The notes beneath the pieces were generated by a model. The model was not told the DNA's origin, searched no databases, and was given only the letters and a program-made list of their open reading frames with translations. The translations under genes and the position numbers were made by a program. From a virus, in IMG/VR virus record IMGVR_UViG_3300008262_003596, positions 1 to 46,204 of that record: a DNA stretch of 46,204 bases. One strand, written 5' to 3'. Position 1 is the first letter of the stretch; each line of letters begins with the position of its first letter. Positions 66-23,647 of the stretch are shown here, piece after piece.

Positions 66-1034
66 ATGAAACTTACTCCAATAGATTTAGGCAACGGAAT
101 ACTCTTATTTAAGAACGCACTTAAAGATCCAAAAAAGACATACGAGTTTATTCTTGACTCAAAAACAAACGACGATCCATTCTTTGGTAAAGATGTGTGG
201 CATGACTGGCAACCATGGGGTAATTATGCAAAAGCTTACCCAAACATATCTGATGACTATAAGACAAGTGATGTATACGGTGCAGAACTACAGAGAGAGT
301 GTCTAGACATATTCTTTGGGGTACTTGATATATATAAAGATCATCTTAAAGATGACCCATTCTTTGATAGAAATGGATTTCCACAAGATTATCCTACTTC
401 ACTAGAAGAGTTGGAAAAAAGAAATGCAGCAGGAGATAGAACATTTATAACTGCGGATCTGGTACTGTTTGAAACAAATAAGAATACTCATAAAGATTGG
501 CAAATGCATATTCATCAAGATACAGTCCCATACTTTGGTCTAATTGCAAACCATATGTTTAATTTCAATATTTATGTCAACGACGATTATGAGGGTGGAG
601 AAATTATATTCTTTAATCATTATGGCACAGATAGAGTTCCTTTTGTAGACTCTAAAACTGGTAAAACAGAAGAGGCATGGATAGTAGAAGATTATTTTGA
701 GTATAAGATGGAAGCTGGAGATGCAATGATATTCCCAGTTGACTTATATCATGGAGTAAAACCAATTGGTAAAAACGACTCTAAGTATTATATTAGACAG
801 TTTATTTCTAACGATAAAAACAAAGAAATTAACGAGGCAAAGATTAAATTTTTGGCGGGAGGAAAGACAGAAGAAGAATTCGAGCATTTGCTCGAAGATT
901 CTAGAAAGCAAGCATTTGCTAAGAGAAAGAATCCAGTACTATTTAACTCTATAGATGAGATTGATATAGACACATCCTTGAATCAGGTAGCATGTATTAT
1001 AAACTCACATAAAGATATATCTGGGCTTATTTAA
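66..1034 (+). CDS. 2-oxoglutarate/Fe(II)-dependent dioxygenase
   Basis: A 322-residue member of the 2OG-Fe(II) oxygenase (prolyl-4-hydroxylase-like) superfamily. The double-stranded beta-helix signature is visible: HxD metal ligands at H150 and D152, the YVNDDYEGG core strand, an AGDAMIFP strand, the distal H229, and R244 in YYIRQF as the likely 2-oxoglutarate anchor. The N-terminal 120 residues and the helical C-terminal tail (about 250-322) are longer than in the minimal fold. The closest relative in this window looks like the gene at 19697. The ATG follows AAAGGAA and an extended -10 promoter. It converges on the minus-strand oxygenase at 1085. The fold and the need for iron and 2-oxoglutarate are well supported; the substrate is unknown. 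Confidence 0.88.
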   Translation: MKLTPIDLGNGILLFKNALKDPKKTYEFILDSKTNDDPFFGKDVWHDWQPWGNYAKAYPNISDDYKTSDVYGAELQRECLDIFFGVLDIYKDHLKDDPFFDRNGFPQDYPTSLEELEKRNAAGDRTFITADLVLFETNKNTHKDWQMHIHQDTVPYFGLIANHMFNFNIYVNDDYEGGEIIFFNHYGTDRVPFVDSKTGKTEEAWIVEDYFEYKMEAGDAMIFPVDLYHGVKPIGKNDSKYYIRQFISNDKNKEINEAKIKFLAGGKTEEEFEHLLEDSRKQAFAKRKNPVLFNSIDEIDIDTSLNQVACIINSHKDISGLI

Positions 1035-1084: not shown

Positions 1085-1927
1085 TTACTGTGATTTAGTA
1101 GATTCTTCTTCCATTTTACGCTTATTTACAATCTTATGTGTATTATCGCAATAAGGATAATCTGCTGAGTCCCCGCAAATACACTTCTTTTTACAGAAAG
1201 TTGTCTCTGGGTAAACAGTAGCTACCCAATCCATGATCTCTTCAGTATCTGTTATGTGCGGATGCTTATCTGGATTAAATAACTCAAATGTTCCAGGGGC
1301 ATGTTCTTTTTCCATGCAGAAGTTAGAGTAAGCGTATCTCGTTCCGCTTGTAATTTCTTTTACACCATGTTCCCATGGATGCACTGCTCCATGAATAACA
1401 AAGTCTCTAGGCTTTACATCAACTACCAGACAATCATCTGGATCTTGAGGTCTATTTTTGCGACTTCCATCTTTTTCTATGTTTGGATAATAGATTTCTC
1501 CGCCAGTGTAATCTCCAAAGTATGTAACAATACCGTGACTTAATCTACAACATGTTGACCATCTATCTAGCTGAGTGAGATGGTGTTCCATATTCATTCC
1601 TGGACTGTCTGCATGAATAAACATTCCTTTATCACCAGGACGCATGACTTGCATGAAAAGCTGTGGATGGATGTAATGTTCTGGATAAAGAAGTTCTGAA
1701 ATTCTATCCCATATTGGTTTTAGCTCTACCATCAGTGGACCAGTTTTATTTTTATACCAATCAATGGCATGCCCTTCATGTTTAAAGGCTTCCTGATCGT
1801 CCTCAAATTTCTTTTCGTATTCTTTCATTAAATTTGTTATAAGGCTATTCTCTTCTTCAGATAAAAAGTTACGCCAGATCCAAATTTCATCAGCAATTTG
1901 TTCAATATTAGGGTTATTTGTAAACAT
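1085..1927 (-). CDS. 2OG-Fe(II) oxygenase fused to a CDGSH iron-sulfur motif
   Basis: A 280-residue protein with two parts. Residues 1-205 carry the oxygenase fold: H105 and D107 (FIHADSPG), the TGGEIYYPN strand, H187 in HGVKEITSG, and R197 as the likely 2OG-binding arginine. Residues 245-265 match the CDGSH [2Fe-2S] signature C-x-C-x2-S-x3-P-x-C-D-x-T-H, with ligands C249, C251, C260 and H264; the usual glycine is N262. CDGSH domains bind a redox-active 2Fe-2S cluster, so this could be an oxygenase with a built-in electron carrier that keeps iron ferrous. The gene is read from a TGCTATAAT-N6-ATG promoter and is predicted leaderless. The oxygenase call is firm. The CDGSH call rests on an exact motif match in one short stretch. 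Confidence 0.85.
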   Translation of the reverse strand: MFTNNPNIEQIADEIWIWRNFLSEEENSLITNLMKEYEKKFEDDQEAFKHEGHAIDWYKNKTGPLMVELKPIWDRISELLYPEHYIHPQLFMQVMRPGDKGMFIHADSPGMNMEHHLTQLDRWSTCCRLSHGIVTYFGDYTGGEIYYPNIEKDGSRKNRPQDPDDCLVVDVKPRDFVIHGAVHPWEHGVKEITSGTRYAYSNFCMEKEHAPGTFELFNPDKHPHITDTEEIMDWVATVYPETTFCKKKCICGDSADYPYCDNTHKIVNKRKMEEESTKSQ

Positions 1928-5450: not shown

Positions 5451-6440
5451 ATGCAAATATCATTTTTTACGCCTACAATTAACTTTAAGAACTCTAATGG
5501 ATATGGTTATGCTGGATCAAATATAGCTACTTCGTTAAAAGAGTTAGGCCATGATGTTCCATATTCTTATCCAAAAGCTCCAGTACAATTAAATTTTGCT
5601 CAGCCAGAACATTTTAAAATGCACAGAGGTCAATATCAAATAGGATATACTCCGTGGGAATCTACAAAAATTCCAGATAAATGGAAAAATATGTTAGATC
5701 ACTGCGATGAAATTTGGACAACATCAGACTGGTGCGCTAATGTTTTCGAAGATAACGGATATAAAGATATCAAGGTTTATCCACATGGTATACAAGACAT
5801 ATGGAAGCCAAAAAGAAGAAGAGAGTCAGACAAGATTAAGTTTCTTCACATCGGAGAGCCAGCACCAAGAAAAGCTGGACAAATGGTAGTAGATGTGTTT
5901 GGAGAGCTTTATGGAAATAATCCTAAGTATTCTCTTACAATAAAAGCGTATCATCATAATACAACCAGAGTTTATAATAACTACATAGATAAAGAGATAA
6001 TAGGTTTACCACAAAATATTTATAATAATGTAAAGGTTATAACAGAAGAACTAAGTGATCTAGAGTTAGTTAGACTATATCACGATCATGATGTTTTAGT
6101 ATATCCAAGTTATGGAGAAGGATTTGGTTTTATTCCGCTCCAAGCCCTTGCTACTGGTATGCCAACTATATGTACGGCAAGTTGGGCACATTATGAAAAA
6201 TACTTAGGCCCATTAAAATTAAAATCAAAGCTAGTTGATTCCCCGTGGCCATTTCCACACGAAGGTAAAGTTTTTGAGCCAAACCGTCAACACCTAGTTG
6301 AGCTTATGAGAGATGTTGTTTTTAACTTTAATGCATATTCTGGATATTACTATGCTCAGTCAACTAAGATACATCAAGAATATAATTGGTTAGAGTTGAC
6401 TAAGAATTCCTTTGATCACATATTCAAAAAATTTAATTAG
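5451..6440 (+). CDS. GT-B family glycosyltransferase (GT4-like)
   Basis: 329 residues with GT-B architecture. The N-terminal half begins with an FFTP strand and a glycine-rich GYGYAGSNIA loop and carries an IGYTPWEST motif. The C-terminal half has the donor-binding elements KFLHIGEPAPRKAG and SYGEGFGFIPLQALATGMP, the place of the GT4 E-x7-E motif. The second glutamate is replaced by Q, which may alter donor or metal-free catalysis. It would transfer a sugar from an activated donor to an unknown acceptor, possibly phage DNA, virion protein or a host surface glycan. Only weak SD (AGAAAG) precedes the ATG. Divergent from the lysozyme operon. Confidence 0.82.
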   Translation: MQISFFTPTINFKNSNGYGYAGSNIATSLKELGHDVPYSYPKAPVQLNFAQPEHFKMHRGQYQIGYTPWESTKIPDKWKNMLDHCDEIWTTSDWCANVFEDNGYKDIKVYPHGIQDIWKPKRRRESDKIKFLHIGEPAPRKAGQMVVDVFGELYGNNPKYSLTIKAYHHNTTRVYNNYIDKEIIGLPQNIYNNVKVITEELSDLELVRLYHDHDVLVYPSYGEGFGFIPLQALATGMPTICTASWAHYEKYLGPLKLKSKLVDSPWPFPHEGKVFEPNRQHLVELMRDVVFNFNAYSGYYYAQSTKIHQEYNWLELTKNSFDHIFKKFN

Positions 6441-11912: not shown

Positions 11913-13961
11913 ATGTCAACAGTAAGAATTCAAGTAAGAAGAGGTACAGCGGCTCAATGGACTTCCGCCAACCCAGTTTTAGAAGCTGGAGAGATGGGTC
12001 TTGAGACAGACACAAAGTATATTAAGTTTGGTGATGGAACGGCAGCTTGGTCAGCATTAGGTTATGCCAATGACCCAGGATTCCTTGATCTCTCAAACCA
12101 GTTAGTTAATTATGTAGAGCTAACAGATATTGGAGCGGTCTCTGGTGTAGCGGGACTAGATTCAAGCAAGAACCTTCTCGTTCCAGGAGCATCTATTATT
12201 GTTGAGGGCTCTACAAATAATGAATTTGAAACTACCCTTACTGTTACAAACCCAACAGCTGATAGAACAATTACATTCCCAGATGCTACAGGTACAGTAG
12301 CACTTATGTCAGACATTACCGCATTAGTAGACAGTGCACCAGGAACATTAGACACATTGAATGAATTAGCTGCAGCGCTAGGTGATGACGCTAACTTTGC
12401 GGTAACCGTCACAAATGCATTAAATTCTTTAAGTAATGGCAAGCAATCAGTTGTTGCAAATGTTACAGATACTGAAATTGGATATCTTGATGGAGTTACT
12501 TCAGCAATTCAAACTCAGTTAAATGCAAAGCAGGCAGTTGTTTCTGGTGTTACTAGTACACAAATTGGCTACCTTGATGGCGTAACTTCTGGAATTCAAG
12601 CACAGATTGATGCAAAGCAAGCTAAAGTTGCAAATGTTACAGATACAGAAATCGGACACCTTGACGGAGTTACATCTGGAATTCAGTCACAATTAGATGC
12701 AAAGCAAGCAGTTGTTTCTGGTGTTACCAGCACACAAATCGGTTATCTTGACGGTGTTACATCATCAATTCAGACACAGTTAAACGCAAAAGCCTCATCC
12801 TCTGATCTAAGCTCTCACGCTTCAGATACAACAGGTATTCATGGAATTGCGGATACTGCAGCTCTAGCTACAATAACACAGGCCAACACAGCAGCAAGTA
12901 ATGCAGAATCTAATGCAATTACTGCTGCAGGAATAGCAGCAGCTTCAGCAATTGCTACAGCTGTAACTAATCATGAAAATGATACAACTTCTGTTCATGG
13001 AATTGCAGATACATCTGTTTTAACGACAGCAAGTAATACACAAACTTTAACAAATAAGACTTTAACAAGTCCAAAAATTAATGAAGATGTTGCAATAACA
13101 GCAACTGCTACAGAACTTAATTATGTTGATGGAGTTACCTCAGCAATTCAGACTCAGTTGAATGCAAAGGCATCATCTACTGACTTAAGCTCACATGCAA
13201 CAGATACCACATCTATTCATGGAATTTCTGATACAGCACAATTAGCATATTTAAATGCAGCAAATCAAACATTTACTGGAAATATGGAAGTTGACGGAAA
13301 TATCGTTGTTGATGGAAATTTAACAGTTAATGGTACATCTTTTAACGCATCATCAACAACTATTGTAATTGAAGATAACATGGTACAGCTTGCTCATCAA
13401 AATTCAGCAAATACAGTAGACCTTGGTCTGGTAGTTGCTTATAATGATGGAACAGTAAAACATGCAGGTTTCGTAAGAGATGTTTCTGCTAATGAGTGGA
13501 AGCTCTTCAAGGGAGTAAGCACAGAGCCTACAACCACAGTTGATTTCAGTCAGGGATCACTAGATGATCTTGAGCTTAATAATTTAGCTGCAGCGGGAAT
13601 TATATTTACAGATGGAACACAAACAAAAGAGGGTGTGCCATCACAAACCACAATTATTCAAAAGACTGCAGCATACACCCTGTCAGCATTGACAGAAAGA
13701 GACGATCTAATTGAAGTGTCTCATACTGGTGGAACTGCAGTCGATATAACAATTCCAACAGATTCAACACTAAACTTCCCAATAGGTACTTCTATCGATG
13801 TACTTAGAACAAATACGGGTGGAGTAAGAGTTGTAGGTGCAGCTGGAGTTACAGTAAATTCAACCCCAGGAGCTTTCTTAAGAGCTCAATGGTCATCTGC
13901 AACACTTTTCAAGCGTGCTGCAAATACTTGGGTACTAATCGGCGATTTAGCAACAGCATAA
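11913..13961 (+). CDS. Large repeat-containing tail fibre protein (682 aa)
   Basis: 682 residues. Residues 1-55 form a fibre-attachment module: IQVRRGTAAQWTSANPVLEAGEMG, then a DTKYIKFGDGTAAW turn. Residues about 150-420 are tandem stalk modules of the form VxDTEIGYLDGVTSxIQTQLNAK or STQIGYLDGVTSxIQAQIDAK, plus HGIADTA segments. Residues 430-560 add a DGNLTVNG...ASSTTIVIEDNM module, and the C-terminal 110 residues form a beta domain with LRTNTGGVRVVGAAGVTV and the ending WVLIGDLATA. This is a trimeric-fibre plan in which repeat number may vary between phages. Probably contacts the host surface. Confidence 0.85.
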   Translation: MSTVRIQVRRGTAAQWTSANPVLEAGEMGLETDTKYIKFGDGTAAWSALGYANDPGFLDLSNQLVNYVELTDIGAVSGVAGLDSSKNLLVPGASIIVEGSTNNEFETTLTVTNPTADRTITFPDATGTVALMSDITALVDSAPGTLDTLNELAAALGDDANFAVTVTNALNSLSNGKQSVVANVTDTEIGYLDGVTSAIQTQLNAKQAVVSGVTSTQIGYLDGVTSGIQAQIDAKQAKVANVTDTEIGHLDGVTSGIQSQLDAKQAVVSGVTSTQIGYLDGVTSSIQTQLNAKASSSDLSSHASDTTGIHGIADTAALATITQANTAASNAESNAITAAGIAAASAIATAVTNHENDTTSVHGIADTSVLTTASNTQTLTNKTLTSPKINEDVAITATATELNYVDGVTSAIQTQLNAKASSTDLSSHATDTTSIHGISDTAQLAYLNAANQTFTGNMEVDGNIVVDGNLTVNGTSFNASSTTIVIEDNMVQLAHQNSANTVDLGLVVAYNDGTVKHAGFVRDVSANEWKLFKGVSTEPTTTVDFSQGSLDDLELNNLAAAGIIFTDGTQTKEGVPSQTTIIQKTAAYTLSALTERDDLIEVSHTGGTAVDITIPTDSTLNFPIGTSIDVLRTNTGGVRVVGAAGVTVNSTPGAFLRAQWSSATLFKRAANTWVLIGDLATA

Positions 13962-13981: not shown

Positions 13982-14884
13982 ATGGCAGCAGGTAAAAAAA
14001 CAGGTAAAGTTTCAGGTCAAATAAGTCAGCCAGAAGCAGTAGTAATATCAGGTGCAGCAGACGTTGGGACTTCAAGACCATATCTAGCAACAGCAAATAC
14101 AACTTCTGAGGCAAATGCTGCAGGAACTGGTGGAGCCGTTACGTTAACATTTGCGGTTCCTTCTGGATCGGCAGCAGCATCTTCATTTACTATTACAACA
14201 ACTCCAACCACATATACTGTAACTACATCTTCAAGTCCGTATACATTCCAAGGTCTTGCATCTAACACAGCATATACATTTACAATTGTTGCAAATAGCT
14301 CAGTAGGATCTTCTGCCCCCAAAACATCATCTTCAGTAACAGCAACAACTGTTCCTCAAGCAATTCAAACAGCTTCAGTATCATCAACAGTTGCAAATAG
14401 AGATGATCTTACATGGACAGCTCCAGAAACTGGAGGTAAGGCTATATCAAGCTATACTGTAACTTCTACAGACGGGCCTTCATATACTGGAATCGTTACA
14501 ACATCAACACAAGTTACAGAAACTGGTGGAACCTCACAAAGTTATGATATATATGCATTAAATGCTAATGGAACATCTTTAGCTAAAAGAGTTGGTCCAG
14601 TTACTACTTTCTTCGCTCCACCAGCATTCTTTAGCCCACCAGCATTCTTCTCCCCACCAGGGTTTTTTGCCCCACCAAACTTCTTTGCCCCACCAAACTT
14701 CTTTGCCCCACCAGGGTTCTTTGCCCCACCAGGGTTCTTTGCCCCACCAGGGTTCTTTTCACCACCAAACTTCTTCTCCCCACCAGGGTTCTTTAGCCCA
14801 CCAGGGTTCTTTTCCCCACCAGCATTCTGTTCATTTAACTGCCCATATGGAACATACTGTGACAACGGTAAGTGCATAGGTTAA
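13982..14884 (+). CDS. Fibronectin-III-like protein with FF(A/S)PP repeats and Cys-rich end
   Basis: 300 residues in three zones. Residues 30-208 look like two fibronectin type III-like beta-sandwiches (LTFAVPSGSAAASSFTI and LTWTAPETGGKAISSYTV mark their first strands). Residues 210-281 are twelve tandem copies of a six-residue unit FF(A/S)PP(G/N/A): six end in G, three in N, three in A. Residues 283-298 hold four cysteines (283, 287, 293, 298) in CSFNCPYGTYCDNGKC, like a small disulphide knot. It probably sits on the virion or its fibres. Seven 2OG oxygenases follow downstream, and PPG/PPN units resemble prolyl- or asparaginyl-hydroxylase substrates. That link is inference. Confidence 0.8.
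   Translation: MAAGKKTGKVSGQISQPEAVVISGAADVGTSRPYLATANTTSEANAAGTGGAVTLTFAVPSGSAAASSFTITTTPTTYTVTTSSSPYTFQGLASNTAYTFTIVANSSVGSSAPKTSSSVTATTVPQAIQTASVSSTVANRDDLTWTAPETGGKAISSYTVTSTDGPSYTGIVTTSTQVTETGGTSQSYDIYALNANGTSLAKRVGPVTTFFAPPAFFSPPAFFSPPGFFAPPNFFAPPNFFAPPGFFAPPGFFAPPGFFSPPNFFSPPGFFSPPGFFSPPAFCSFNCPYGTYCDNGKCIG
14609..14824 (+). repeat. Twelve tandem 18-bp coding repeats
   Basis: Twelve units of 18 bases (216 bases exactly), each encoding FF(A/S)PP(G/N/A). The DNA copies are very similar, for example the three adjacent FFAPPG units, which suggests recent expansion by slippage or unequal recombination. Because the unit is a multiple of three, copy number can change without breaking the frame. 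Confidence 0.95.
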
Positions 14885-14904
14885 TTTACATTATATAATG
14901 TAAA
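14885..14904. promoter_or_regulatory. 20-bp perfect palindrome over a TATAAT box
   Basis: The arms TTTACATTAT and ATAATGTAAA are exact reverse complements with no spacer. The centre holds TATAAT on the plus strand (14894-14899), 25 bases before the ATG at 14924. The length and symmetry point to a homodimer operator blocking the promoter of the oxygenase region, or to a bidirectional hairpin. It is the longest gap-free palindrome I saw. Confidence 0.6.
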
Positions 14905-14923
14905 CATAGTAGAAAGATAAAAT

Positions 14924-15346
14924 ATGCGAAGCAAGTACGCTTTAGCCGTAGAAATAGAAGAAGGTCTATACGAAATATTTGATATATTATATTTTGAAAA
15001 AGATACAGATATAGATAAACGGTATAGGAAGTCCATTTCTATGGGATCAAAGGCCATAGTAGCTCCAGACCTTAATAATATTAAGATAGGCTCCATATTA
15101 GTAGATAATAAGTTTATTATTGATAATAAAGAAGGAGTTAGAGAATTTAATCATAATGATATTGTTTACGTATTCTTGTCAAACAATAAAATTTTTGGTA
15201 TCATGTCTATGGATAAGAGTAGTATTGATTTTGCAAAGTATAACGCAGCTTTTGACGGCAATGTAATTATCGTAGATGTTTCCGAAGAAGATTCCGTAGG
15301 ACTTGGAGATATCTGGCACTCTAGCAAAAATTCAATATTGAAATAG
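14924..15346 (+). CDS. Hypothetical beta-rich protein (140 aa)
   Basis: 140 residues with alternating strands and charged turns (YALAVEIEEGLYEIFDILYF, GSKAIVAPDLNNIKIGSILVDNKFII, DIVYVFLSNNKIFGIMSM). No signal peptide, membrane span or cysteines, and no catalytic motif recognised. A weak ribosome site (AGAAAG) precedes the ATG. It is the first gene after the 20-bp palindrome and leads the oxygenase operon. I do not recognise the family. Confidence 0.7.
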   Translation: MRSKYALAVEIEEGLYEIFDILYFEKDTDIDKRYRKSISMGSKAIVAPDLNNIKIGSILVDNKFIIDNKEGVREFNHNDIVYVFLSNNKIFGIMSMDKSSIDFAKYNAAFDGNVIIVDVSEEDSVGLGDIWHSSKNSILK

Positions 15347-15361
15347 TAGAAAGAATAAATT

Positions 15362-15604
15362 ATGTCTAAATGGAAAGAATGGAAAGAAAATTTAGGTGAT
15401 GCTAGACCATGGCATCTGATTGACCCAAATAAAAAAATACGTGAGCAATCAATTATAGATAAAAGAATGAGTCTTTGCATAGGTTGTGAATTTTTTTTGC
15501 CGACAAAACAATGCGACAAATGTAAATGTTATATGCCTGCAAAAACAACTCTTTCAAATGCTGAGTGTCCAATAGGTAAATGGCATAGGGAAGATAGCGA
15601 ATAG
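15362..15604 (+). CDS. Cys-rich DUF6171-like protein (80 aa)
   Basis: 80 residues with six cysteines in zinc-binding spacing: C39-x2-C42, C51-x2-C54-x-C56, then a final CPIGKW. The plan CxxC...CxxCxC...CPxGxW resembles DUF6171, a family of small proteins of unknown function. The N-terminal 30 residues are charged and helical (KWKEWKENLGDARPWHL). It is followed after one base by the first oxygenase of the array, so it is probably part of that operon. Zinc or cluster binding is likely. Confidence 0.7.
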   Translation: MSKWKEWKENLGDARPWHLIDPNKKIREQSIIDKRMSLCIGCEFFLPTKQCDKCKCYMPAKTTLSNAECPIGKWHREDSE

Positions 15605-15605
15605 C

Positions 15606-16214
15606 ATGGTAAAAAATGTAATTGGTCCAGGGATAGTTATCTATAAAAATATTTTTCCAAAATCTATGAATCTTGTAGAAAGATATGAAAAAAACATAGG
15701 AGATAATTGGGATAAAGCCAAAACTAATGAAAGCTCACTGTATCAAGGTGTCGGTAGATTTTGTCAAGCTTTTGTGTATAGCAATATTTCTTTAGACCAG
15801 GATGCAAAAAATTCAAAAGAGTTGCTAGAGATATACGATGAAGTAATGATAAAAATTAAAGAATGTTTATTAGACTATGAAAAAGATTATCCAGTTAAAG
15901 TAGAATATTTTGAAGCATTAAATGTTGTTAAATATTCTGCAAACGATTTTTTTAATTATCATACAGATGATGGACCAGACGTCAGATATACAGTATCTTG
16001 TGTTGCATACCTTAATGATGATTATGATGGTGGAAATCTTCATTTCAAATTCTTTGATATTAATTATAAACCAGAATCTGGAGATTTAGTGATTTTCCCA
16101 TCTTCTTATATATATGCACATGCAGCATATCCTGTTAAAAGTGGAATAAAATATATATTAAATTTAATGACAGACAGAACACAAAAAGGGCACAGAAGTG
16201 ACCAATATAAATAA
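15606..16214 (+). CDS. 2OG-Fe(II) oxygenase 1 of the array
   Basis: 202 residues. Metal ligands H119 and D121 (YHTDDG) and H172 in YAHAAYP; the core strand YLNDDYDGGNL; a strand SGDLVIFPSS; K182 instead of the usual Arg as likely 2OG anchor. The start VIGPGIVIYKNIFPKSMNLVERYE is related to the next two genes, so these three form a subfamily. It follows the Cys-rich gene with one base between. No signal peptide: it should act in the cytoplasm. Substrate unknown. Confidence 0.88.
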   Translation: MVKNVIGPGIVIYKNIFPKSMNLVERYEKNIGDNWDKAKTNESSLYQGVGRFCQAFVYSNISLDQDAKNSKELLEIYDEVMIKIKECLLDYEKDYPVKVEYFEALNVVKYSANDFFNYHTDDGPDVRYTVSCVAYLNDDYDGGNLHFKFFDINYKPESGDLVIFPSSYIYAHAAYPVKSGIKYILNLMTDRTQKGHRSDQYK

Positions 16215-16226
16215 ATTGGATAATAA

Positions 16227-16919
16227 ATGTTAAGTAATGCTGAGTATATAGCCCCAGGTCTTATTGTATATAGAAATGTATTTTCAGAGGACCTTAATTT
16301 AATCAACAGGCTAGAAGAAATTTTATCTAATGAATCAAATGAAAATAATTGGAATACTTCAAAAACCCCACCTGGACGTGCTCCAATAGGTAAAAAATAT
16401 AGAGAATGCTCAGATTTTAAAATTAAAAAAAATACGTGGGATGATTCGGGAAAAAGCGAATCGATATTAAAACTTGAAAAAATTTGGGAAGACTGTTATA
16501 CATCGGTGTTAGGCCCAGTTGAAGATTATGCTCAACATTTTAGGTTACCACCACTGGGATATTGGGCTCCATTTAATTTTGTAAAATATGATATAGGTGA
16601 ATATATTGAAGTTCATTCTGACCATGCTTATTCTCACATATGTGTTTTGTCTGCTGTTGGATACATAAACGATGACTATGAAGGAGGAGAGTTATTTTTT
16701 GATAAGCTTAATTTAAAGATTAAGCCAAAAGCTGGCGATTTATATTTATATCCTTCTACATATCTTTATTCACATGCATCCCTTCCTATTACCCATGGAA
16801 CTAAGTATGCTATTGTTACCTTTCTAGATTATTTGGAGGCACCACACACTCCAGAATATAAAGAAATAGAACATAAAGAAATAGACAAAAAACAAATAAA
16901 AGCTGTATACTATAAATAA
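16227..16919 (+). CDS. 2OG-Fe(II) oxygenase 2 of the array
   Basis: 230 residues. H130 and D132 (EVHSDHAY), the YINDDYEGGELFF strand, the AGDLYLYPS strand, H183 and K193 (2OG anchor, Lys in place of Arg). More than half of its residues match the next gene, including a 20-residue block around KIKKNTWDDSGKSES, so the two are a tandem duplicate. The last 25 residues are charged (EHKEIDKKQ) and not shared. Translation starts after TTGGATAATAA, a spacer repeated almost exactly before the next gene. Confidence 0.9.
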   Translation: MLSNAEYIAPGLIVYRNVFSEDLNLINRLEEILSNESNENNWNTSKTPPGRAPIGKKYRECSDFKIKKNTWDDSGKSESILKLEKIWEDCYTSVLGPVEDYAQHFRLPPLGYWAPFNFVKYDIGEYIEVHSDHAYSHICVLSAVGYINDDYEGGELFFDKLNLKIKPKAGDLYLYPSTYLYSHASLPITHGTKYAIVTFLDYLEAPHTPEYKEIEHKEIDKKQIKAVYYK

Positions 16920-16931
16920 ATTGGAGAATAA

Positions 16932-17597
16932 ATGTTAAGTAATGCTGAATTTTTAGGCCCAGGTATTGTTGTCTATAGAAATGTTTTTACTCCAGAAATG
17001 GATTTAATTAATAGACTAGAGAATACACTATCTGATAGCTCAGATGTAAATCAATGGAAAACTGCAAAGACTGGCTATGCACTGGTAGATAAAGAATATA
17101 GAGATTGTTCAGATTTTAAAATTAAAAAAAATACATGGGATGATTCTGGCAAAAGCGAATCCACGTTAAAGCTTGAAAAAATTTGGGAAGATTCTTACAA
17201 CGCACAAATTGCCCCAGTTGAAGATTATAGTCAAATGTTTGGATTGGCTCCTTTAAAATATTGGGAGTCATTTAATTTTATTAAATATGGAGCAGATCAA
17301 CATTTTCAAGTTCATTCAGATCATGGATATTCTTATATATGCGTACTTTCTTCAGTTGGATACATAAATGATGACTATGAGGGAGGAGAGTTATTTTTTG
17401 ATAAGTTTAATTTAAAGATAAAGCCTCGGGCAGGGGATCTTTATTTATTCCCATCATCATTTATATATTCTCATGCTGCAATGCCAGTTACTTCTGGAGT
17501 TAAGTATTCTATTGTTACAATGCTTGATTATTTAGAAGCTCCGCATACTCCAGAGTATAGAGAGATAGAAAAAAGATATACAGAAGATTATGTATGA
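16932..17597 (+). CDS. 2OG-Fe(II) oxygenase 3 of the array (paralogue of 2)
   Basis: 221 residues. H128 and D130 (QVHSDHGY), YINDDYEGGELFF, AGDLYLFPSS, H181 and K191. The metal site is the same as in its neighbour; the most diverged part is between residues 48 and 55 and around 89-110, outside the core, where substrate choice is often decided. Its end overlaps the start of the DUF6065-like gene by eight bases. Divergence between the copies suggests separate substrates or residues rather than simple dosage. Confidence 0.9.
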   Translation: MLSNAEFLGPGIVVYRNVFTPEMDLINRLENTLSDSSDVNQWKTAKTGYALVDKEYRDCSDFKIKKNTWDDSGKSESTLKLEKIWEDSYNAQIAPVEDYSQMFGLAPLKYWESFNFIKYGADQHFQVHSDHGYSYICVLSSVGYINDDYEGGELFFDKFNLKIKPRAGDLYLFPSSFIYSHAAMPVTSGVKYSIVTMLDYLEAPHTPEYREIEKRYTEDYV

Positions 17598-18285
17598 TAT
17601 TTTAGTTTATAAAAATAACGCAGATTCTGCCAACATATCTCAACTTTCTGTCAAAAGAGATTGGATGGAAGATACAGTAGATGCACATGCCTATAAATGT
17701 TTCCCAGTAACCCTTACAAATTCATTAGGATGGGGAATATCATACCCAGAGGATATATCTTTTGTATGGGATGGAATATCAGATACTTATAGTCACCATG
17801 TTAAAGTTTTATCAGGACATAAGTATTGCAATTTAGGTAGAGCAAATGGAACTATAAGCTTTAAAACTGGTTTAGTTTTTAGAACTAACGAGAAGACAAC
17901 TTTATTACAGATGCCAGTCCCAAATTTATTTACAGAAGATTATCAATCATTTACAACACTCATAAGCACTTCATTTTTTCAGGGTGAGCTACCCTGCGCT
18001 TTGAAAATATTAAAAGCTAATAAAATAATAACAATTAAAGCAAATACTCCAATATCATCTATAATTCCAATATCTTTATCAGAAATGCAGGGCTCTTCAA
18101 TTTCCTACTCTGGACAAGAAATATTAAAGCCTAGCGAATATGGAGAACAGCATTTAGAAATAGTAAAAGAAAAAACTTCTAAAGGTCTATGGACAAATTT
18201 TTACAGAGATGCCATAGATCCAAGAGGAAACAAATTGGGAAACCACGAAGTAAAGTCAATTAAATTAAAGGTAGTTGAAAAATAA
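17590..18285 (+). CDS. DUF6065-like protein A (231 aa)
   Basis: 231 residues. The opening KRDWMEDTVDAHAYKCFPVTLTNSLGWGISYPEDISFVWDG resembles DUF6065: RDWM then A-Y-CFP followed by GW and a WDG turn. The middle has GTISFKTGLVFRTNE and the end NTPISSIIPISL, probably a cupin-like or related beta-barrel, but no HxD/H metal site is obvious. It overlaps the oxygenase before it by eight bases and is followed one base later by a related gene. Function unknown; its position among oxygenases suggests it works with them, for example as a substrate-binding partner. Confidence 0.65.
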   Translation: MYDILVYKNNADSANISQLSVKRDWMEDTVDAHAYKCFPVTLTNSLGWGISYPEDISFVWDGISDTYSHHVKVLSGHKYCNLGRANGTISFKTGLVFRTNEKTTLLQMPVPNLFTEDYQSFTTLISTSFFQGELPCALKILKANKIITIKANTPISSIIPISLSEMQGSSISYSGQEILKPSEYGEQHLEIVKEKTSKGLWTNFYRDAIDPRGNKLGNHEVKSIKLKVVEK

Positions 18286-18286
18286 T

Positions 18287-19018
18287 ATGGATAAAAAAAT
18301 AACATTTGTTTCTCATCAATTGTACAACAATGAAAATTCAGAACTCGCACCGAAGCCAGGAAAAACACAAATTCCTAAATGGTTTACTTCTGCAAATAAA
18401 TATTGGAAGGAAGAAGGAAAAAAAGAAGTTTTAAGGCACAAGTGGGGTTCAGAGATACTTGGATTTAAGTCTTGCCCAGCTTTACTAGACATATTTTTAA
18501 GTGGATATTATCTAACGACACCTTGCGACATTATGTTTTATAGAGATCCAGAAAATAATTTATTGTTAGCCAAAACAGAACCAGGATATGAAAAATTTAT
18601 TGATTCAAGGGTGCCTATGGAGGGATTCGAAGTACCGTATGGGTATGAAGCTCAACACTTTCACTGGTATCCAAATTGGGGAGTTAAATTAGAAAAGGGT
18701 TATAGTGCAATTTTTATGTCTCCAATGAATAGATATGATTTACCTTTTATAACTACTGCTGGTATAATAGATAGTGATATGTTAGAAATACCAGGCCTTA
18801 CTCCATTTTTTTTAAGAAAAGATTTTTCTGGTTTATTGCCAGCAGGAACACCATATGTTCAAATATTTCCATTTAAAAGAGAAGACTGGAAAATGGAATT
18901 AGATTATAAAGAAGAAGAAGAAATGAATGAAATAAAAAATAAAGCTTCAAAAATTTTAAGAACAACTGAAAATGGACAATATAAAAAAAATTTATGGCAA
19001 AGGAAGTTATACGAATGA
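18287..19018 (+). CDS. DUF6065-related protein B (243 aa)
   Basis: 243 residues. Distantly related in plan to protein A: CPALLDIFLSGYYLTTPCDI, HFHWYPNWGVKLEKGYSAIFMSP, then IIDSDMLEIPG and GTPYVQIFPFKREDW. The last element parallels the NTPISSIIPIS of protein A. Histidines at about 124 and 126 (HFHW) could be functional. The start at 18287 is preferred over the TTG at 18275 because it follows the previous stop by one base. It ends with the ATGA overlap to the next oxygenase. The pair may act as one unit, such as a heterodimer. Function unknown. Confidence 0.65.
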   Translation: MDKKITFVSHQLYNNENSELAPKPGKTQIPKWFTSANKYWKEEGKKEVLRHKWGSEILGFKSCPALLDIFLSGYYLTTPCDIMFYRDPENNLLLAKTEPGYEKFIDSRVPMEGFEVPYGYEAQHFHWYPNWGVKLEKGYSAIFMSPMNRYDLPFITTAGIIDSDMLEIPGLTPFFLRKDFSGLLPAGTPYVQIFPFKREDWKMELDYKEEEEMNEIKNKASKILRTTENGQYKKNLWQRKLYE

Positions 19019-19704
19019 TACAAGATTCTAATAAAAAGGTTCAAGAAAGAGTAAGATACTCAAGACAGTCAATAACCCCTTCTGGTTATTTTGGTTCATC
19101 TTCTGATAATATAGTCGAAATAGAAAATTTTATTACAGAAGAAGAGCAGCAGTACCTTTTAAATTTTGCAAAAAATAATACCGAATGGGATATTACTGAA
19201 TCTCAATGGAATGAAAATGGTAACATAATATATGACCACAGGGTTTGGGAAAACCGTGTGGCTACAGTTGGTACCTTAAAAAAAGCAGATCCTAAAGTAG
19301 TAGAGATACTTACGCTTGTAACAGAAAGAATGCAGCCAATAATTGAAAATAAATTTAATGTAGAGGTGTTCCCAGCAGCACCAGCAATAGTTAGGTGGCC
19401 AGTAGGCACTATGCAATTCCCACACGCAGACAAAGAGCTTCACGAAGGACCAGATGCTGGCACACCAAATGAATTTCCATGGTACGACATCGGAACGGTA
19501 TTCTATATAAATGATGACTATGTTGGCGGGGAACTATATTTTCCAAAACAAAATATAGTTTTTAAAACAAAAGCCAGGGGAGCATATTTTTTCCCTGGAG
19601 ACATGAATTATATTCATGGTGTTAATAAGGTAAAAGAAGGATGTAGGTACACATTCCCACTTTTTTGGACAGTAACTAAACTAGAAAGAGAAAAAAATGA
19701 CTAA
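19015..19704 (+). CDS. 2OG-Fe(II) oxygenase 4 of the array
   Basis: 229 residues. H137 and D139 (FPHADKE), core YINDDYVGGELYFP, the RGAYFFPGD strand, H201 (YIHGV), and R211 with the usual arginine anchor in CRYTFPLFW. Its start IVEIENFITEEEQQYLL is the typical prolyl-hydroxylase-like opening. Start 19015 is chosen because AAGGAAG is eight bases ahead and the ATG overlaps the previous TGA; 18994 is also in frame. It is more like classic P4H enzymes than the three before it. Confidence 0.9.
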   Translation: MIQDSNKKVQERVRYSRQSITPSGYFGSSSDNIVEIENFITEEEQQYLLNFAKNNTEWDITESQWNENGNIIYDHRVWENRVATVGTLKKADPKVVEILTLVTERMQPIIENKFNVEVFPAAPAIVRWPVGTMQFPHADKELHEGPDAGTPNEFPWYDIGTVFYINDDYVGGELYFPKQNIVFKTKARGAYFFPGDMNYIHGVNKVKEGCRYTFPLFWTVTKLEREKND

Positions 19705-20479
19705 TGAATTTGATTTTTTTGAAATTTATCCAATGGTTGATGTATATAAAAACTTACTTCCAGACTCACAAAGACTAGCAGAAATAGTTAAAGAGTCTGC
19801 AAAGTCATCCAATGGTAAATATTACTTAAGAGAATGGGATCAGTGGTCTGTCTTCGGCTCTTATACACAGCAAAAACATAACGATAGCGAGCCCAGAGAA
19901 CTTGGAGAAATGTATGATAATGAAAAATATTTATCTGATTCTGTATATTCAGCTTACACAAAAGCAATATCAAACTATATAAAAAGGCACAACCTAACCC
20001 TTCCAGATGGGGCCTCGCTTCTTACGTCATCATTTTCAAAATATGATACAAATGTAGATCATATGCAAAATAATATGTCTATGCAGTATCATACAGATTA
20101 CATAATTTCTGAAAGAGAAATGCCAGGACCAAAATTCTTTTTAACATGTACTACATACCTAAACGACGACTACGTTGGAGGAGAAATTGAGTTCTTAATG
20201 GATGGAAAGCAGTATCCTTATAAGCCAGAGTCGGGGGATATTCTAGTTTTTCCTTCTATAGAGCCATACTTTCACGGAGTTAAAACCATAACATCTGGAG
20301 AAAAGTTTTTTGTTAGAAACTTTGTGTCATACCCATATGGCGGATCAGAAGAGTGGATCAGAAATCAAAAGCATTACGGTGCAGTACGTTGGGCTAAAAT
20401 GGAAGAAGAAAGACTAGAAAAAGAAAATCCTAAAAGCATGAGATATATTAATATGGGAGATAATTATGGAAATAACTAA
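19697..20479 (+). CDS. 2OG-Fe(II) oxygenase 5 of the array
   Basis: 260 residues. H132 and D134 (YHTDY), core YLNDDYVGGEIEF, GDILVFPS, H193 (YFHGV), and R207 in FFVRNF as likely 2OG anchor. The longer N-terminus (about 125 residues) and the C-terminal ending are close in plan to the oxygenase at 66. It overlaps the previous gene by eight bases and the next by 14, so it is tightly coupled. Confidence 0.9.
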   Translation: MTNEFDFFEIYPMVDVYKNLLPDSQRLAEIVKESAKSSNGKYYLREWDQWSVFGSYTQQKHNDSEPRELGEMYDNEKYLSDSVYSAYTKAISNYIKRHNLTLPDGASLLTSSFSKYDTNVDHMQNNMSMQYHTDYIISEREMPGPKFFLTCTTYLNDDYVGGEIEFLMDGKQYPYKPESGDILVFPSIEPYFHGVKTITSGEKFFVRNFVSYPYGGSEEWIRNQKHYGAVRWAKMEEERLEKENPKSMRYINMGDNYGNN

Positions 20480-21176
20480 ATATAAAGAAGATGTATTCCA
20501 TGTCTCTAATGTTATATCAAAAGAAGAAGCGGGTAGAGCTATAAAATACCTAGAATTTTTAGCAGATTCCAATATATTAAAATGGAATCAAATATCTTTT
20601 TACGACTCTTATGCAATGGGATTTTGGGACTCAGATCCAAGGTTAGCCATGTTTGATTTACCACATGATTTTTTTTCTCAGCTTAAAAGTAAGATAAAAA
20701 ATATTTCAGAAGAAGTCCTAGGAAAAGAGTTATCAGAGGTTAGTTATCACGCACAAAAATGGATAGAGGGAGCTTTTGCCAGTTTTCATTCAGACAATTC
20801 TGATAACGAAGGTAACCCCACAGCCTTTGAAAGAAGCAAGTATGCAGTCTTTATGTATTTAAATGAAGACTTTACTGGAGGAGTTTTAAATTTTAAAAAC
20901 CATGATATAACTATTAAGCCAGAGCTAGGTATGCTTGCGATATTTGCTGGAGGCCACGGCAATGAGCATGAGGTTACAAAAGTTAAAAGCGGAACAAGAT
21001 ATACAATAGGATCATTTTGGGACAACGCTGATGCAGTTTATACTGAAGAACAAAGAAAAAAATGGGCTGATGAATTGGCTGAAGTTAGAAGTCAACAAGA
21101 AGAAGAGTATAAGGTCTGGGCAGAAAATAAAGAAAAAGGAATTACATTAGACTACGTTGGCAAAAACGGAGAATAA
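20466..21176 (+). CDS. 2OG-Fe(II) oxygenase 6 of the array
   Basis: 236 residues. H108 and D110 (SFHSDNS), core YLNEDFTGGVLNF, GMLAIFAGG, H168 (NEHEV), and R178 in TRYTIGSFW. After the fold comes a 50-residue charged helical tail (EEQRKKWADELAEVRSQQEE), which may be a coiled coil for partner binding. GGGAG precedes the ATG. The core is less like the others (GGVLNF in place of GGEL), so it may act on a different substrate. Confidence 0.9.
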   Translation: MEITKYKEDVFHVSNVISKEEAGRAIKYLEFLADSNILKWNQISFYDSYAMGFWDSDPRLAMFDLPHDFFSQLKSKIKNISEEVLGKELSEVSYHAQKWIEGAFASFHSDNSDNEGNPTAFERSKYAVFMYLNEDFTGGVLNFKNHDITIKPELGMLAIFAGGHGNEHEVTKVKSGTRYTIGSFWDNADAVYTEEQRKKWADELAEVRSQQEEEYKVWAENKEKGITLDYVGKNGE

Positions 21177-21725
21177 ATGAATATTCAAAAATTAGAAGAC
21201 AATATATATTATTATACAGAAATATTTAGTGATATATCTTCTTACAAATCATTGATAGACGAATACCCCCTAGATTGGCATGACTGGATTTCTAGCGATA
21301 CAGACACGGTGTATGGGTCTTATGCTGGAGGAGAACACTATATTCCAGACATAATATTAGATCCAATAAAATATGTTACATATAGTTGTTTAGACAACTA
21401 CACTAAAAATACAGGTGTTAAGTTTGGGTGGATTCCAAATTCTTATAGAATACAAAAATATTCAACTGGCGCTTACATGGGGCCACACGTAGACTCAATA
21501 GATGAAACTGCAGATAAGTCTCCAACTATATCTATAGTTTTGTATTTAAATGAAGACTACGAAGGCGGAAACATATGCTTTCCAGAACAAGGGCTTGATA
21601 TTAAACCAAAGGCTGGGAGTATGATTATATTTCCTTCATATCCACCATACTACCATGATCCGAAACCAGTAACAAAAGGCACTAAGTATATGTGTCCTAT
21701 ATTTTGTTTCAAGGAGCCTTTTTAA
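21177..21725 (+). CDS. 2OG-Fe(II) oxygenase 7 of the array
   Basis: 182 residues, the shortest of the array. H104 and D106 (GPHVDSI), core YLNEDYEGGNICFP, AGSMIIFPS, H160 (YYHDPK), and K170 as likely 2OG anchor. The DNA reads TAAATGA at the junction: the previous stop touches this ATG, with GGAG ten bases ahead. It is the last gene of the run; a new promoter follows at 21704-21733. Confidence 0.9.
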   Translation: MNIQKLEDNIYYYTEIFSDISSYKSLIDEYPLDWHDWISSDTDTVYGSYAGGEHYIPDIILDPIKYVTYSCLDNYTKNTGVKFGWIPNSYRIQKYSTGAYMGPHVDSIDETADKSPTISIVLYLNEDYEGGNICFPEQGLDIKPKAGSMIIFPSYPPYYHDPKPVTKGTKYMCPIFCFKEPF

Positions 21726-21733
21726 GGTATAAT
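21704..21733 (+). promoter_or_regulatory. Promoter TTGTTT-18-TATAAT, leaderless
   Basis: TTGTTT (21704-21709), an 18-base spacer and TATAAT (21728-21733), with exactly six bases before the ATG at 21740. It lies over the end of the last oxygenase gene. Confidence 0.6.
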
Positions 21734-21739
21734 CTTATT

Positions 21740-23647
21740 ATGTCTTATAAATACTCAGTCATAAAAGATAATCCACTCGGTTTTTGGTTTCTAGATGAAC
21801 AGTCTGGAACTACCGCTATAGATATATCTGGCTGTGGAAATAATGGGGTATATGCACAATCTGTTTCTGCTTTTCCTCTTCCACTCACATATGGCGGAGT
21901 AAATTCTGTAGAAATAACTAGCTCACAAAGCATAACTTTTCCATTAACATATAACTATTATGGAATAAGTAAAGGTACCCCAATAGCAAATAGTAGCTAT
22001 TCTTTTAGTCCATTTACGATAGAGTCTTTTATTTATCCAAAAGCTTTAACATCAACAATGGAACCAGTAGTTGCAGATGCATCAAACGGTGTCGGACTTT
22101 TTGCGAACAATAATGGCGTAGCATTTGCACTAAAAGGTTTATCTAATATTGATTATAGAGTAGATTTTGCTATACCTAATTTTAGCCGTGTGGTACATAT
22201 TGTATGTGTTTACTCAGTGTCAGAAATATCAATATATATAGATGGAGAAAAACAAGCTTCAAAAATATTAAATGATTTTAAATTTACAAATTCATCTTTA
22301 TCACTAAAATGCGGACCCACTTCTAATTCATCAAATAAGTTTTTAGTTGATTCTGTAGCTATATATAGATATTCTTTATCAGAATCTCAAATACAAAATC
22401 ATTATAATTTAGCTCAAGCACTACCAGCATTTAATACGACCTTCCCAGACCTTGGAGAGCTGTTTGACATATACGATACAAATATATCAACTAAGTTTGA
22501 GTATTCCTACCCAGCAAGAAAACCCTGGAAAGATTTAACTACCGCAGGACTAGAGTATGATTTTATAAAAAATAGAATACAAATTCCTGTGGGATCTGGA
22601 ACTTCTCAGTCTGCATTTTTTACTGAGTTTTTATATATACCATCACAATATGGAATAGACGCTTCCAAGATAGAATGGTCTGCGACAGAAGGAGTATCCG
22701 TATACTCAAGTGTTGACGGAGTAAACTATGTTGAATGTGAGAACGGTTCTAAAATACCACAGTATGGGAATTCTACTAGTGGAGAAGATTTTAATGCATC
22801 GTATAGCCTTTACATAAAGGTACTTTTTGAGACGGCAAATGATAAAACAAATAATCCTTTTATGGAAAGCCTCACAATTAAATTTTATAAGTCACAGATT
22901 ATTTATGCTACAAATTCTTCTAGCTACATATCACAAATGACAGATGACACCGAATATTTTGCAAAAGCATATGCGGGAAATAAAAGATACTCAGCTTTAT
23001 CAAGGAATATGCATGGTGGAATACGAGTAAAAGAAAGCTCTGGATTCTATTTAAATCTAGGAAGACTTTGCACATCAATGGAATTTTTCTATACCCCAAA
23101 AGACCTATCTGGCGGAGGTCTTGTATATAGAGAAGACATTAATTTTATAGAGGTCCTAGGAGGGCTGTATAACACCTCATACACGGGATTGGCTGTGGTA
23201 GACGGTGGGCTATATAATTCTTCTTATACGGCTTCCTATGACGCAGGGCCAGTAAGTCCAGACATAGGAGTAGAATATACATGGGCATCATCTGGAACAA
23301 TAACTAAAAATAATATAAAAAAAATATATATAAACGGTGTAGATAAAACATCTCAGACATCAATATCAAATGTTTTTAAGGCTGGTGAAATTTATCACGT
23401 AGTCCTGGTTTTTGATAATCAAATAATAAACTCAGTTAAGCTAGGGTATTCCCTTGATGGGGCTTCAGAGTCTTCATATCAATATATATCTACATACGGC
23501 TATGAGCTAGATTCTGCAACAGTTGCTGATCATTATCAAATTTATATAAACGGAGACCCTACTGTTATATCTGAACCGTCATTTTCCCTGACAGAAAATG
23601 CAGCAGAAGTATTCGATAACGACTGGATTGTGATCCAAAACGTTTAA
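21740..23647 (+). CDS. LamG/concanavalin-like adhesin (635 aa)
   Basis: 635 residues. The first 220 have LamG/concanavalin features: PLGFWFLDEQSGTTAIDISGCGNNGVY, FTIESFIYP, and an ISIYIDGEKQASK strand. The middle (about 230-400) is beta-rich, and the last 230 residues hold a second LamG-like domain with KKIYINGVDK and GEIYHVVLVFDN. LamG folds bind sugars or proteins. It likely recognises host surface polysaccharide or is a virion adhesin. The start at 21740 is chosen for the TATAAT-N6-ATG arrangement; the frame is open upstream to 21692. An internal near-repeat GGLYNTSY/GGLYNSSY lies at about residues 474-494. Confidence 0.8.
   Translation: MSYKYSVIKDNPLGFWFLDEQSGTTAIDISGCGNNGVYAQSVSAFPLPLTYGGVNSVEITSSQSITFPLTYNYYGISKGTPIANSSYSFSPFTIESFIYPKALTSTMEPVVADASNGVGLFANNNGVAFALKGLSNIDYRVDFAIPNFSRVVHIVCVYSVSEISIYIDGEKQASKILNDFKFTNSSLSLKCGPTSNSSNKFLVDSVAIYRYSLSESQIQNHYNLAQALPAFNTTFPDLGELFDIYDTNISTKFEYSYPARKPWKDLTTAGLEYDFIKNRIQIPVGSGTSQSAFFTEFLYIPSQYGIDASKIEWSATEGVSVYSSVDGVNYVECENGSKIPQYGNSTSGEDFNASYSLYIKVLFETANDKTNNPFMESLTIKFYKSQIIYATNSSSYISQMTDDTEYFAKAYAGNKRYSALSRNMHGGIRVKESSGFYLNLGRLCTSMEFFYTPKDLSGGGLVYREDINFIEVLGGLYNTSYTGLAVVDGGLYNSSYTASYDAGPVSPDIGVEYTWASSGTITKNNIKKIYINGVDKTSQTSISNVFKAGEIYHVVLVFDNQIINSVKLGYSLDGASESSYQYISTYGYELDSATVADHYQIYINGDPTVISEPSFSLTENAAEVFDNDWIVIQNV

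Follow-up and report, generated by a model that had tools for sequence, protein, structure and literature searches.

A 2-oxoglutarate oxygenase array linked to a Phe-Pro repeat protein in phage genomes: a candidate module for virion-fibre maturation

Introduction

A virus-encoded enzyme with the prolyl-hydroxylase fold is known from chlorovirus PBCV-1, whose prolyl 4-hydroxylase (vCPH, PDB 5c5t) is reported to be present in the virion and, as Eriksson 1999 is cited in PMC7019647 and PMC9301287, accepts Pro-containing peptides as substrates. vCPH is a single enzyme of a eukaryotic virus. The cellular prolyl 4-hydroxylases (P4Hs) of Bacillus anthracis (3itq/5hv0) and Pseudomonas putida (4iw3) are also single enzymes and were solved with EF-Tu, not with a Phe-Pro fibre; Chlamydomonas P4H-1, a cellular enzyme too, was solved with (Ser-Pro)5 (3gze), a Ser-Pro and not a Phe-Pro repeat. 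Oxygenases dependent on 2-oxoglutarate (2OG) and Fe(II) are widespread in phages, and our literature search found no settled function for them. Cyanophage S-SZBM1 carries nine copies, described as scattered, and DNA repair has been proposed as the role of the phage copies (PMC9146016). Here we analyse the IMG/VR virus record IMGVR_UViG_3300008262_003596 (46,204 bases, classed as linear; "the window" denotes this entire stretch), in which seven such genes stand in tandem behind a gene for a protein with a Phe-Pro repeat tail. We put at roughly two in three the probability that the cassette so formed (positions 13982-21725) is a virion-fibre maturation module that hydroxylates the Phe-Pro tract. 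No paper on the repeat or on the array was found in the literature search, most subscription papers lying outside its reach. Many oxygenases per phage are already known, but an ordered tandem array fixed beside a Phe-Pro fibre gene appears to be undescribed.

Results and Discussion

Seven oxygenase genes follow a Phe-Pro repeat gene

ORF calling on the window returned oxygenases A to G as seven real open reading frames (ORFs), co-directional and in a single run. The genes concerned are as follows.

13982..14884, + strand: fn3-domain protein of 300 aa (fn3, PF00041), with twelve FFxPP repeats and then a short Cys-rich tail; proposed hydroxylation substrate
14609..14821, + strand: Phe-Pro tract, FF(A/S)PP(A/G/N) twelve times, read from the sequence in the frame set by the upstream fn3 domain
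15606..16214, + strand: oxygenase A; Lys anchor; PF13640, 3.9e-11; triad present
16227..16919, + strand: oxygenase B; Lys anchor; PF13640, 1e-9; tandem duplicate of C, 69% identical
16932..17597, + strand: oxygenase C; Lys anchor; PF13640, 5e-12; predicted structure closest to prolyl hydroxylases
17590..18285, + strand: DUF6065 protein d1; PF19541, 3.6e-23; predicted dUTPase-like core without the motif III Asp residues
18275..19018, + strand: phrog_7084 protein d2; phrog_7084, 3.7e-35; distant relative of d1, keeping the dUTPase-like G[IV][IV]DxD
18994..19704, + strand: oxygenase D; Arg anchor; alternative start at 19015; phrog_2297, 1.7e-12; no Pfam match; triad present
19697..20479, + strand: oxygenase E; Lys anchor; PF13640, 1.5e-8
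20466..21176, + strand: oxygenase F; Arg anchor; PF13640, 4.8e-10
21177..21725, + strand: oxygenase G, last in the array; Lys anchor; PF13640, 5.2e-13; PDB sequence matches are prolyl 4-hydroxylases

Consecutive genes are separated by 12 bases at A/B and B/C and by none at F/G, and overlap elsewhere, when the two non-oxygenase genes between C and D (17590-18285, DUF6065; 18275-19018, phrog_7084) are counted. With this proviso, the statement of an earlier, sequence-only reading of the window that the genes overlap or lie within 12 bases of each other is borne out. That reading did not mention the repeat gene (13982-14884) or the identity of genes 17590 and 18275, and the start it gave for oxygenase D, 19015, is an internal ATG of the ORF called here at 18994-19704.

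Profile searches of each protein, which the same reading had proposed, place seven of the nine oxygenases of the window (A, B, C, E, F, G and a separate gene at position 66) above the curated cut-off of the Pfam family 2OG-FeII_Oxy_3 (PF13640). No Pfam oxygenase match was obtained for D or for a second separate gene at 1085 in this search of the window proteins; D was recovered with PHROG profiles, matching phrog_61 and phrog_2297 (E-values of about 1e-12). PHROG 61 ranks with the most frequent phage groups that have structural matches among human proteins (PMC12774648). The HxD motif, the distal His and the Lys or Arg residue that anchors 2OG are present in 9/9 window oxygenases, in keeping with the triad claimed for all of them beforehand. 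The gene at 1085, credited earlier with only the GG part of the core motif, has indeed kept GG, yet its triad is complete as well. The anchor is Lys in A, B, C, E and G and Arg in D and F, as previously read save for E, which had been counted among the Arg members.

The repeat and the oxygenases occur together

IMG/VR viral contigs were searched for Phe-Pro repeat DNA alone, which avoids choosing loci by their oxygenases. An oxygenase was present in 114 of the 158 repeat loci, many of which are incomplete at their ends. Among ORFs with 3 kb or more of flanking sequence, a same-strand oxygenase lay within 3 kb downstream of 68/83 repeat ORFs and upstream of 1/69. Collagen-like GPx ORFs, used as control in a separate scan, had an oxygenase in 3/67 cases, which led us to reject a general link to collagen-like fibres. 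Virion fibres are the best supported of the three targets put forward by the sequence-only reading (fibres, nucleotides, host envelope), since the array follows the Phe-Pro protein in nearly every examinable locus. The survey for this gene run beside fibre genes, also proposed there, showed the pairing to recur in many related viruses with a conserved order, which in portal relatives reads Mtd_N protein, repeat protein, oxygenases, DUF6065, oxygenases, LamG protein, portal. To our knowledge, no Phe-Pro repeat gene is linked to vCPH in PBCV-1.

Presence and absence were compared in 34 portal relatives for which 7.8 kb or more of upstream sequence was available. The array is found in 22 of them. 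The repeat is visible in 18 of the array-bearing loci, and the remaining four begin too near the array to reveal it. For one of the four (L065), the missing upstream piece carries the repeat. All 12 relatives without the array also lack the repeat in the at least 7.8 kb searched upstream. Pro-poor Gly-X-Y collagen-like proteins are encoded at the cassette region of the four array-less relatives that were inspected closely (L015, L038, L041 and L055). Whole contigs behind array or repeat loci carry 3-15 PF13640 genes each (17/17), and array-less records (eleven relatives and phage BillNye) 0-2 each. A 107-kb contig, that of locus L114 (IMGVR_UViG_3300043446_003513), has 15 PF13640 matches, most of them over the cut-off.

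The Phe-Pro tract is constant and its carrier variable

The tract is attached to unrelated carriers, fn3 domains here and PASTA domains elsewhere. What comes after it is a short tail, a Hint/intein-like domain (sub-threshold in Pfam) or, in one locus, a Peptidase_S74 tail-fibre chaperone. Thus, the tract is constant and the carrier variable. In several genomes, a second such tail is carried by another protein. Variation falls on third codon positions and leaves F and P intact, an illustration only, since the search pattern itself fixes F and P. A cellular origin of the repeat was considered and dropped: a scan of genome contigs gave, among the 80 listed, almost only single matches per locus, as by chance. 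The Hint/intein-like regions after the tract (L063, 841-2157; L068, 775-2103; L566, 9458-10783) suggest, from their sequence, a possible self-processing of the fibre end.

Pro makes up 40% and Phe 37% of the residues in 126 distinct tracts, which are nearly devoid of Lys, Asp and Asn. Therefore, either Pro or Phe would be the main target within the tract, and hydroxylation of Lys or of Asn/Asp was rejected. Tracts are of the FFxPPx or FFPPxFPP type (model peptide sequences are FFAPPGFFAPPN and FFPPHFPP) and not of the Gly-X-Y type of the collagen P4H system. With Phe nearly as abundant as Pro, and with Mtd_N and LamG genes as frequent neighbours, the array could be imagined to act on Phe or on mixed residues of the tail, or else on another virion protein encoded next to it, for instance the Mtd_N or LamG fibre. 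We hold this to be very unlikely, given the kinship of the enzymes to prolyl hydroxylases (see below) and the occurrence of a LamG-type protein in the corresponding position of relatives that have no array.

The enzymes are closest to prolyl hydroxylases

An array-protein profile compared with PDB retrieved the B. anthracis P4H first (E 9e-12), making it the closest solved relative by this measure; next came PKHD-type hydroxylases, prolyl 3-hydroxylase 1, the PBCV-1 and Chlamydomonas prolyl hydroxylases and PHD2. Structure prediction, another of the checks suggested beforehand, was applied to oxygenase C. Its AlphaFold2 (AF2) model has a predicted local distance difference test (pLDDT) score of 94 and shows, for this member, the double-stranded beta-helix fold. 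The top of the Foldseek list consists of prolyl hydroxylases throughout (E about 1e-10), headed by the P. putida P4H with EF-Tu (4iw3) and with the Chlamydomonas P4H-1, which binds a Pro repeat peptide, at rank 2; the B. anthracis enzyme is also among the best folds. This kinship, drawn from profiles and a predicted model, supports protein hydroxylation and specifically prolyl hydroxylation, although a fold is no proof of substrate.

The same matches could be read differently. The P. putida enzyme at the top of the list was solved with EF-Tu, as was that of B. anthracis (5v7y), and the array might hydroxylate host proteins (EF-Tu or ribosomal proteins, for instance) to steer translation or oxygen sensing, its fibre neighbour reflecting an incidental placement in a late operon. 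However, such a role, which we regard as unlikely, fails to predict the tight and directional Phe-Pro link found from the repeat side, the joint absence of repeat and array from relatives, or the presence of up to 15 enzymes per contig.

Array members are long diverged and maintained

Oxygenases B and C are 69% identical, most other pairs about 25-40% over the aligned part. To place these values, we used an aligned set of 362 oxygenases from 64 sampled arrays on viral contigs, including the two non-array oxygenases of the window. The full active site is found in 360/362. In the sampled arrays, the member just 5' of the DUF6065 gene has a Lys anchor in 63/63 cases, and the member just 3' an Arg anchor in 60/60. 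The tree sorts sequences by position, B and C grouping with members that precede the DUF6065 gene, D with those first after it and E, F and G with members further downstream; the order is exchanged in some cases. Oxygenase C is the most conserved array member, and its usual place is directly 5' of the DUF6065 gene. The ratio of non-synonymous to synonymous substitution rates (dN/dS), measured between the window and locus L012, ranges from 0.035 to 0.26 for all nine genes (A to G, d1 and d2), which are under purifying selection.

Because of the anchor pattern, the position-wise tree and the low dN/dS, the array can be read, at the level of sequence comparison, as an ordered series of enzymes that diverged long ago and have been maintained, in which orthologous families are position-specific and the order is conserved across the 64 sampled arrays. 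Simple tandem duplication was rejected save for B/C on the basis of identities and tree; the sequence-only reading had likewise judged that the genes are not simple copies. Decayed paralogues were also rejected, active sites being intact and dN/dS low. Array oxygenases are matched by PHROG 2297, 274 and 3531, which bear the names "DNA endonuclease (V)" and "ferrochelatase"; therefore, such labels in phage annotations may mislead.

The DUF6065 and phrog_7084 proteins

The AF2 model of d1 (pLDDT 94) gives a modest Foldseek match to trimeric dUTPases (E 1.6e-4; template modelling (TM) scores of 0.40 for query and 0.69 for target), and the Pfam dUTPase profile is matched, below threshold, by 2/87 proteins. 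The Asp of a G[IV][IV]DxD-like motif III is present in 26/27 d2 proteins and absent from d1 proteins. As a guess, d1 and d2 may be trimeric partners that aid assembly or present the substrate. A search of the whole named-phage collection gave no match to d1. A phrog_7084-like protein is encoded near virion genes in haloviruses HF1 (L324, 5911-6795) and HF2, with no adjacent oxygenases annotated.

The dUTPase-like predicted fold beside the oxygenases could hint at nucleotide chemistry. For cyanophages, where copies lie next to uvsX/uvsY/uvsW, a role of 2OG oxygenases in DNA repair has been suggested (PMC9146016), and the array might by analogy serve DNA or nucleotide modification or the repair of alkylated DNA. 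Such a role is scarcely probable here: the best matches are prolyl hydroxylases, the cassette sits between fibre and portal genes, d1 is without the dUTPase-like Asp motif, and no DNA-modification partners were recognised in the window.

A proposed route to a hydroxylated fibre

In the reading that we favour, fibre maturation, the first gene of the cassette would give a fibre-like protein composed of the fn3 carrier and the Phe-Pro repeat tail. During virus assembly, the co-directional oxygenases of prolyl-hydroxylase fold would use Fe(II), O2 and 2OG to hydroxylate residues of this tail, most likely its Pro-Pro pairs, each enzyme having its own preference for site or context. Hydroxylation would stiffen the tract or give it a defined gain in solubility and stickiness. 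Hydroxyproline acts in this manner in collagen and plant extensins. The multi-step pathway envisaged in the sequence-only reading would be one form of this scheme; parallel hydroxylation of different sites is equally compatible with the data.

Several points weigh against this reading. The prolyl-hydroxylase fold serves other substrates too, and the need for five to eleven enzymes has no explanation. Fifteen of the 83 repeat ORFs have no nearby downstream oxygenase, although some of these are the second repeat protein of genomes in which an array lies close by (L158, L163). Being palindromic and matched partly by chance, the control pattern makes an imperfect control, and the repeat scan also includes related phages. 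On the portal tree the array state changed, by gain or loss, only about twice; therefore, a two-by-two test of the presence and absence data overstates independence, and a phylogenetically independent test of co-occurrence was set aside, these changes being too few to inform it. Finally, hydroxyproline was sought in PBCV-1 virion proteins and not found, despite the virion-associated prolyl 4-hydroxylase (PMC7019647), a case that, by analogy, warns against assuming a hydroxylated product.

A bolder version would see here a Phe-Pro fibre material whose properties are set in a combinatorial pattern by five to eleven hydroxylases, position-specific and acting on prolyl (or prolyl and phenylalanyl) residues, with dUTPase-fold partners and sometimes Hint self-processing, as a phage counterpart of collagen and extensin maturation. 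We offer this tentatively, with the odds on balance against it; if true, it would account for many phage 2OG oxygenases that are at present classed under metabolism or repair. Should the simpler fibre-maturation reading be correct, post-translational proline hydroxylation would join phage tail assembly, with hydroxylases that come with ready-made repeat substrates. A candidate substrate named by linkage, from the substrate side and adjacent to the enzymes, makes the question of function directly testable.

Neighbouring genes, lineage and other oxygenase-rich phages

The cassette is flanked or interrupted by the first four of the following genes; the last two encode the separate oxygenases.

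11913..13961, + strand: Mtd_N-domain protein (PF18454, 2.2e-17); usual left neighbour of the repeat gene
14924..15346, + strand: 140-aa protein of unknown function between fibre gene and array; also in near relatives
15362..15604, + strand: 80-aa Cys-rich protein (weak DUF6171); frequent beside repeat genes
21692..23647, + strand: LamG/ConA-like protein (PF13385, 3.6e-15); commonly closes the cassette on the right, ahead of the portal genes
66..1034, + strand: separate 2OG oxygenase outside the array (PF13640, 2.1e-6, barely over the cut-off)
1085..1927, - strand: separate 2OG oxygenase with HAD...H and GTRY and a C-terminal CDGSH-type motif

The C-terminal stretch of gene 1085-1927 reads CxCGxSxxxPYCDxxH and gives a sub-threshold match to zf-CDGSH (CDGSH iron-sulphur). 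In the tree, this gene clusters with a few array oxygenases from other loci. A minus-strand oxygenase precedes a transglycosylase gene in the repeat-bearing loci L152, L157 and L161, as it does at 1085-1927 of the window.

The window portal is about 58% identical to those of Streptomyces phages including BillNye (Stanwilliamsviridae, Loccivirinae). BillNye shares with the window the order transglycosylase, glycosyltransferase, ribonucleotide reductase, fibre region, portal, protease, capsid; unlike the window, it is without the array and without any PF13640 gene. Portal homology and gene order in this 46-kb fragment identify the virus, as far as sequence goes, as a tailed phage related to Stanwilliamsviridae. 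An actinobacterial host is likely because the portal is close to those of Streptomyces phages and the flanking order is that of BillNye. Searches for T4-type portal and capsid in a second contig group gave no match, nor did the search controls; the PF04860 portal match was missing in 8/17 contigs tested, with one weak, sub-cut-off sheath match.

The glycosyltransferase-like gene of the window, at 5451, brings up a further alternative, in which the array tailors a glycan, a lipid or a small molecule of envelope or capsule together with this phage enzyme. Extra enzymes inside the array at some other loci, such as a carbamoyltransferase, would fit. Yet the glycosyltransferase is also found in the array-less BillNye, and protein hydroxylases are the nearest relatives by both sequence and fold; we consider this alternative highly doubtful. 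Directly before the array of L074 (107-1382) lie, as judged by eye only, a sulfotransferase-like gene and a gene resembling an Asp/Asn hydroxylase.

The sequence-only reading had stated that phages usually carry one or two such enzymes. This does not hold for all groups: cyanophages have nine to thirteen, therefore the rarity was overstated and the number is unusual only in part. The isolated phage S-SCSM1, with 13 PF13640 matches over the cut-off, illustrates the likeness of cyanomyoviruses to the present case, in that oxygenases are many and one group flanks annotated tail-fibre genes (L569, MK867354.2, 1-6931). The FFxPP repeat was not found in S-SCSM1 or S-H9-1. The "short tail fiber" of S-SCSM1 has a long low-complexity tract rich in Arg, Pro and aromatic residues, a possible parallel to the Phe-Pro case.

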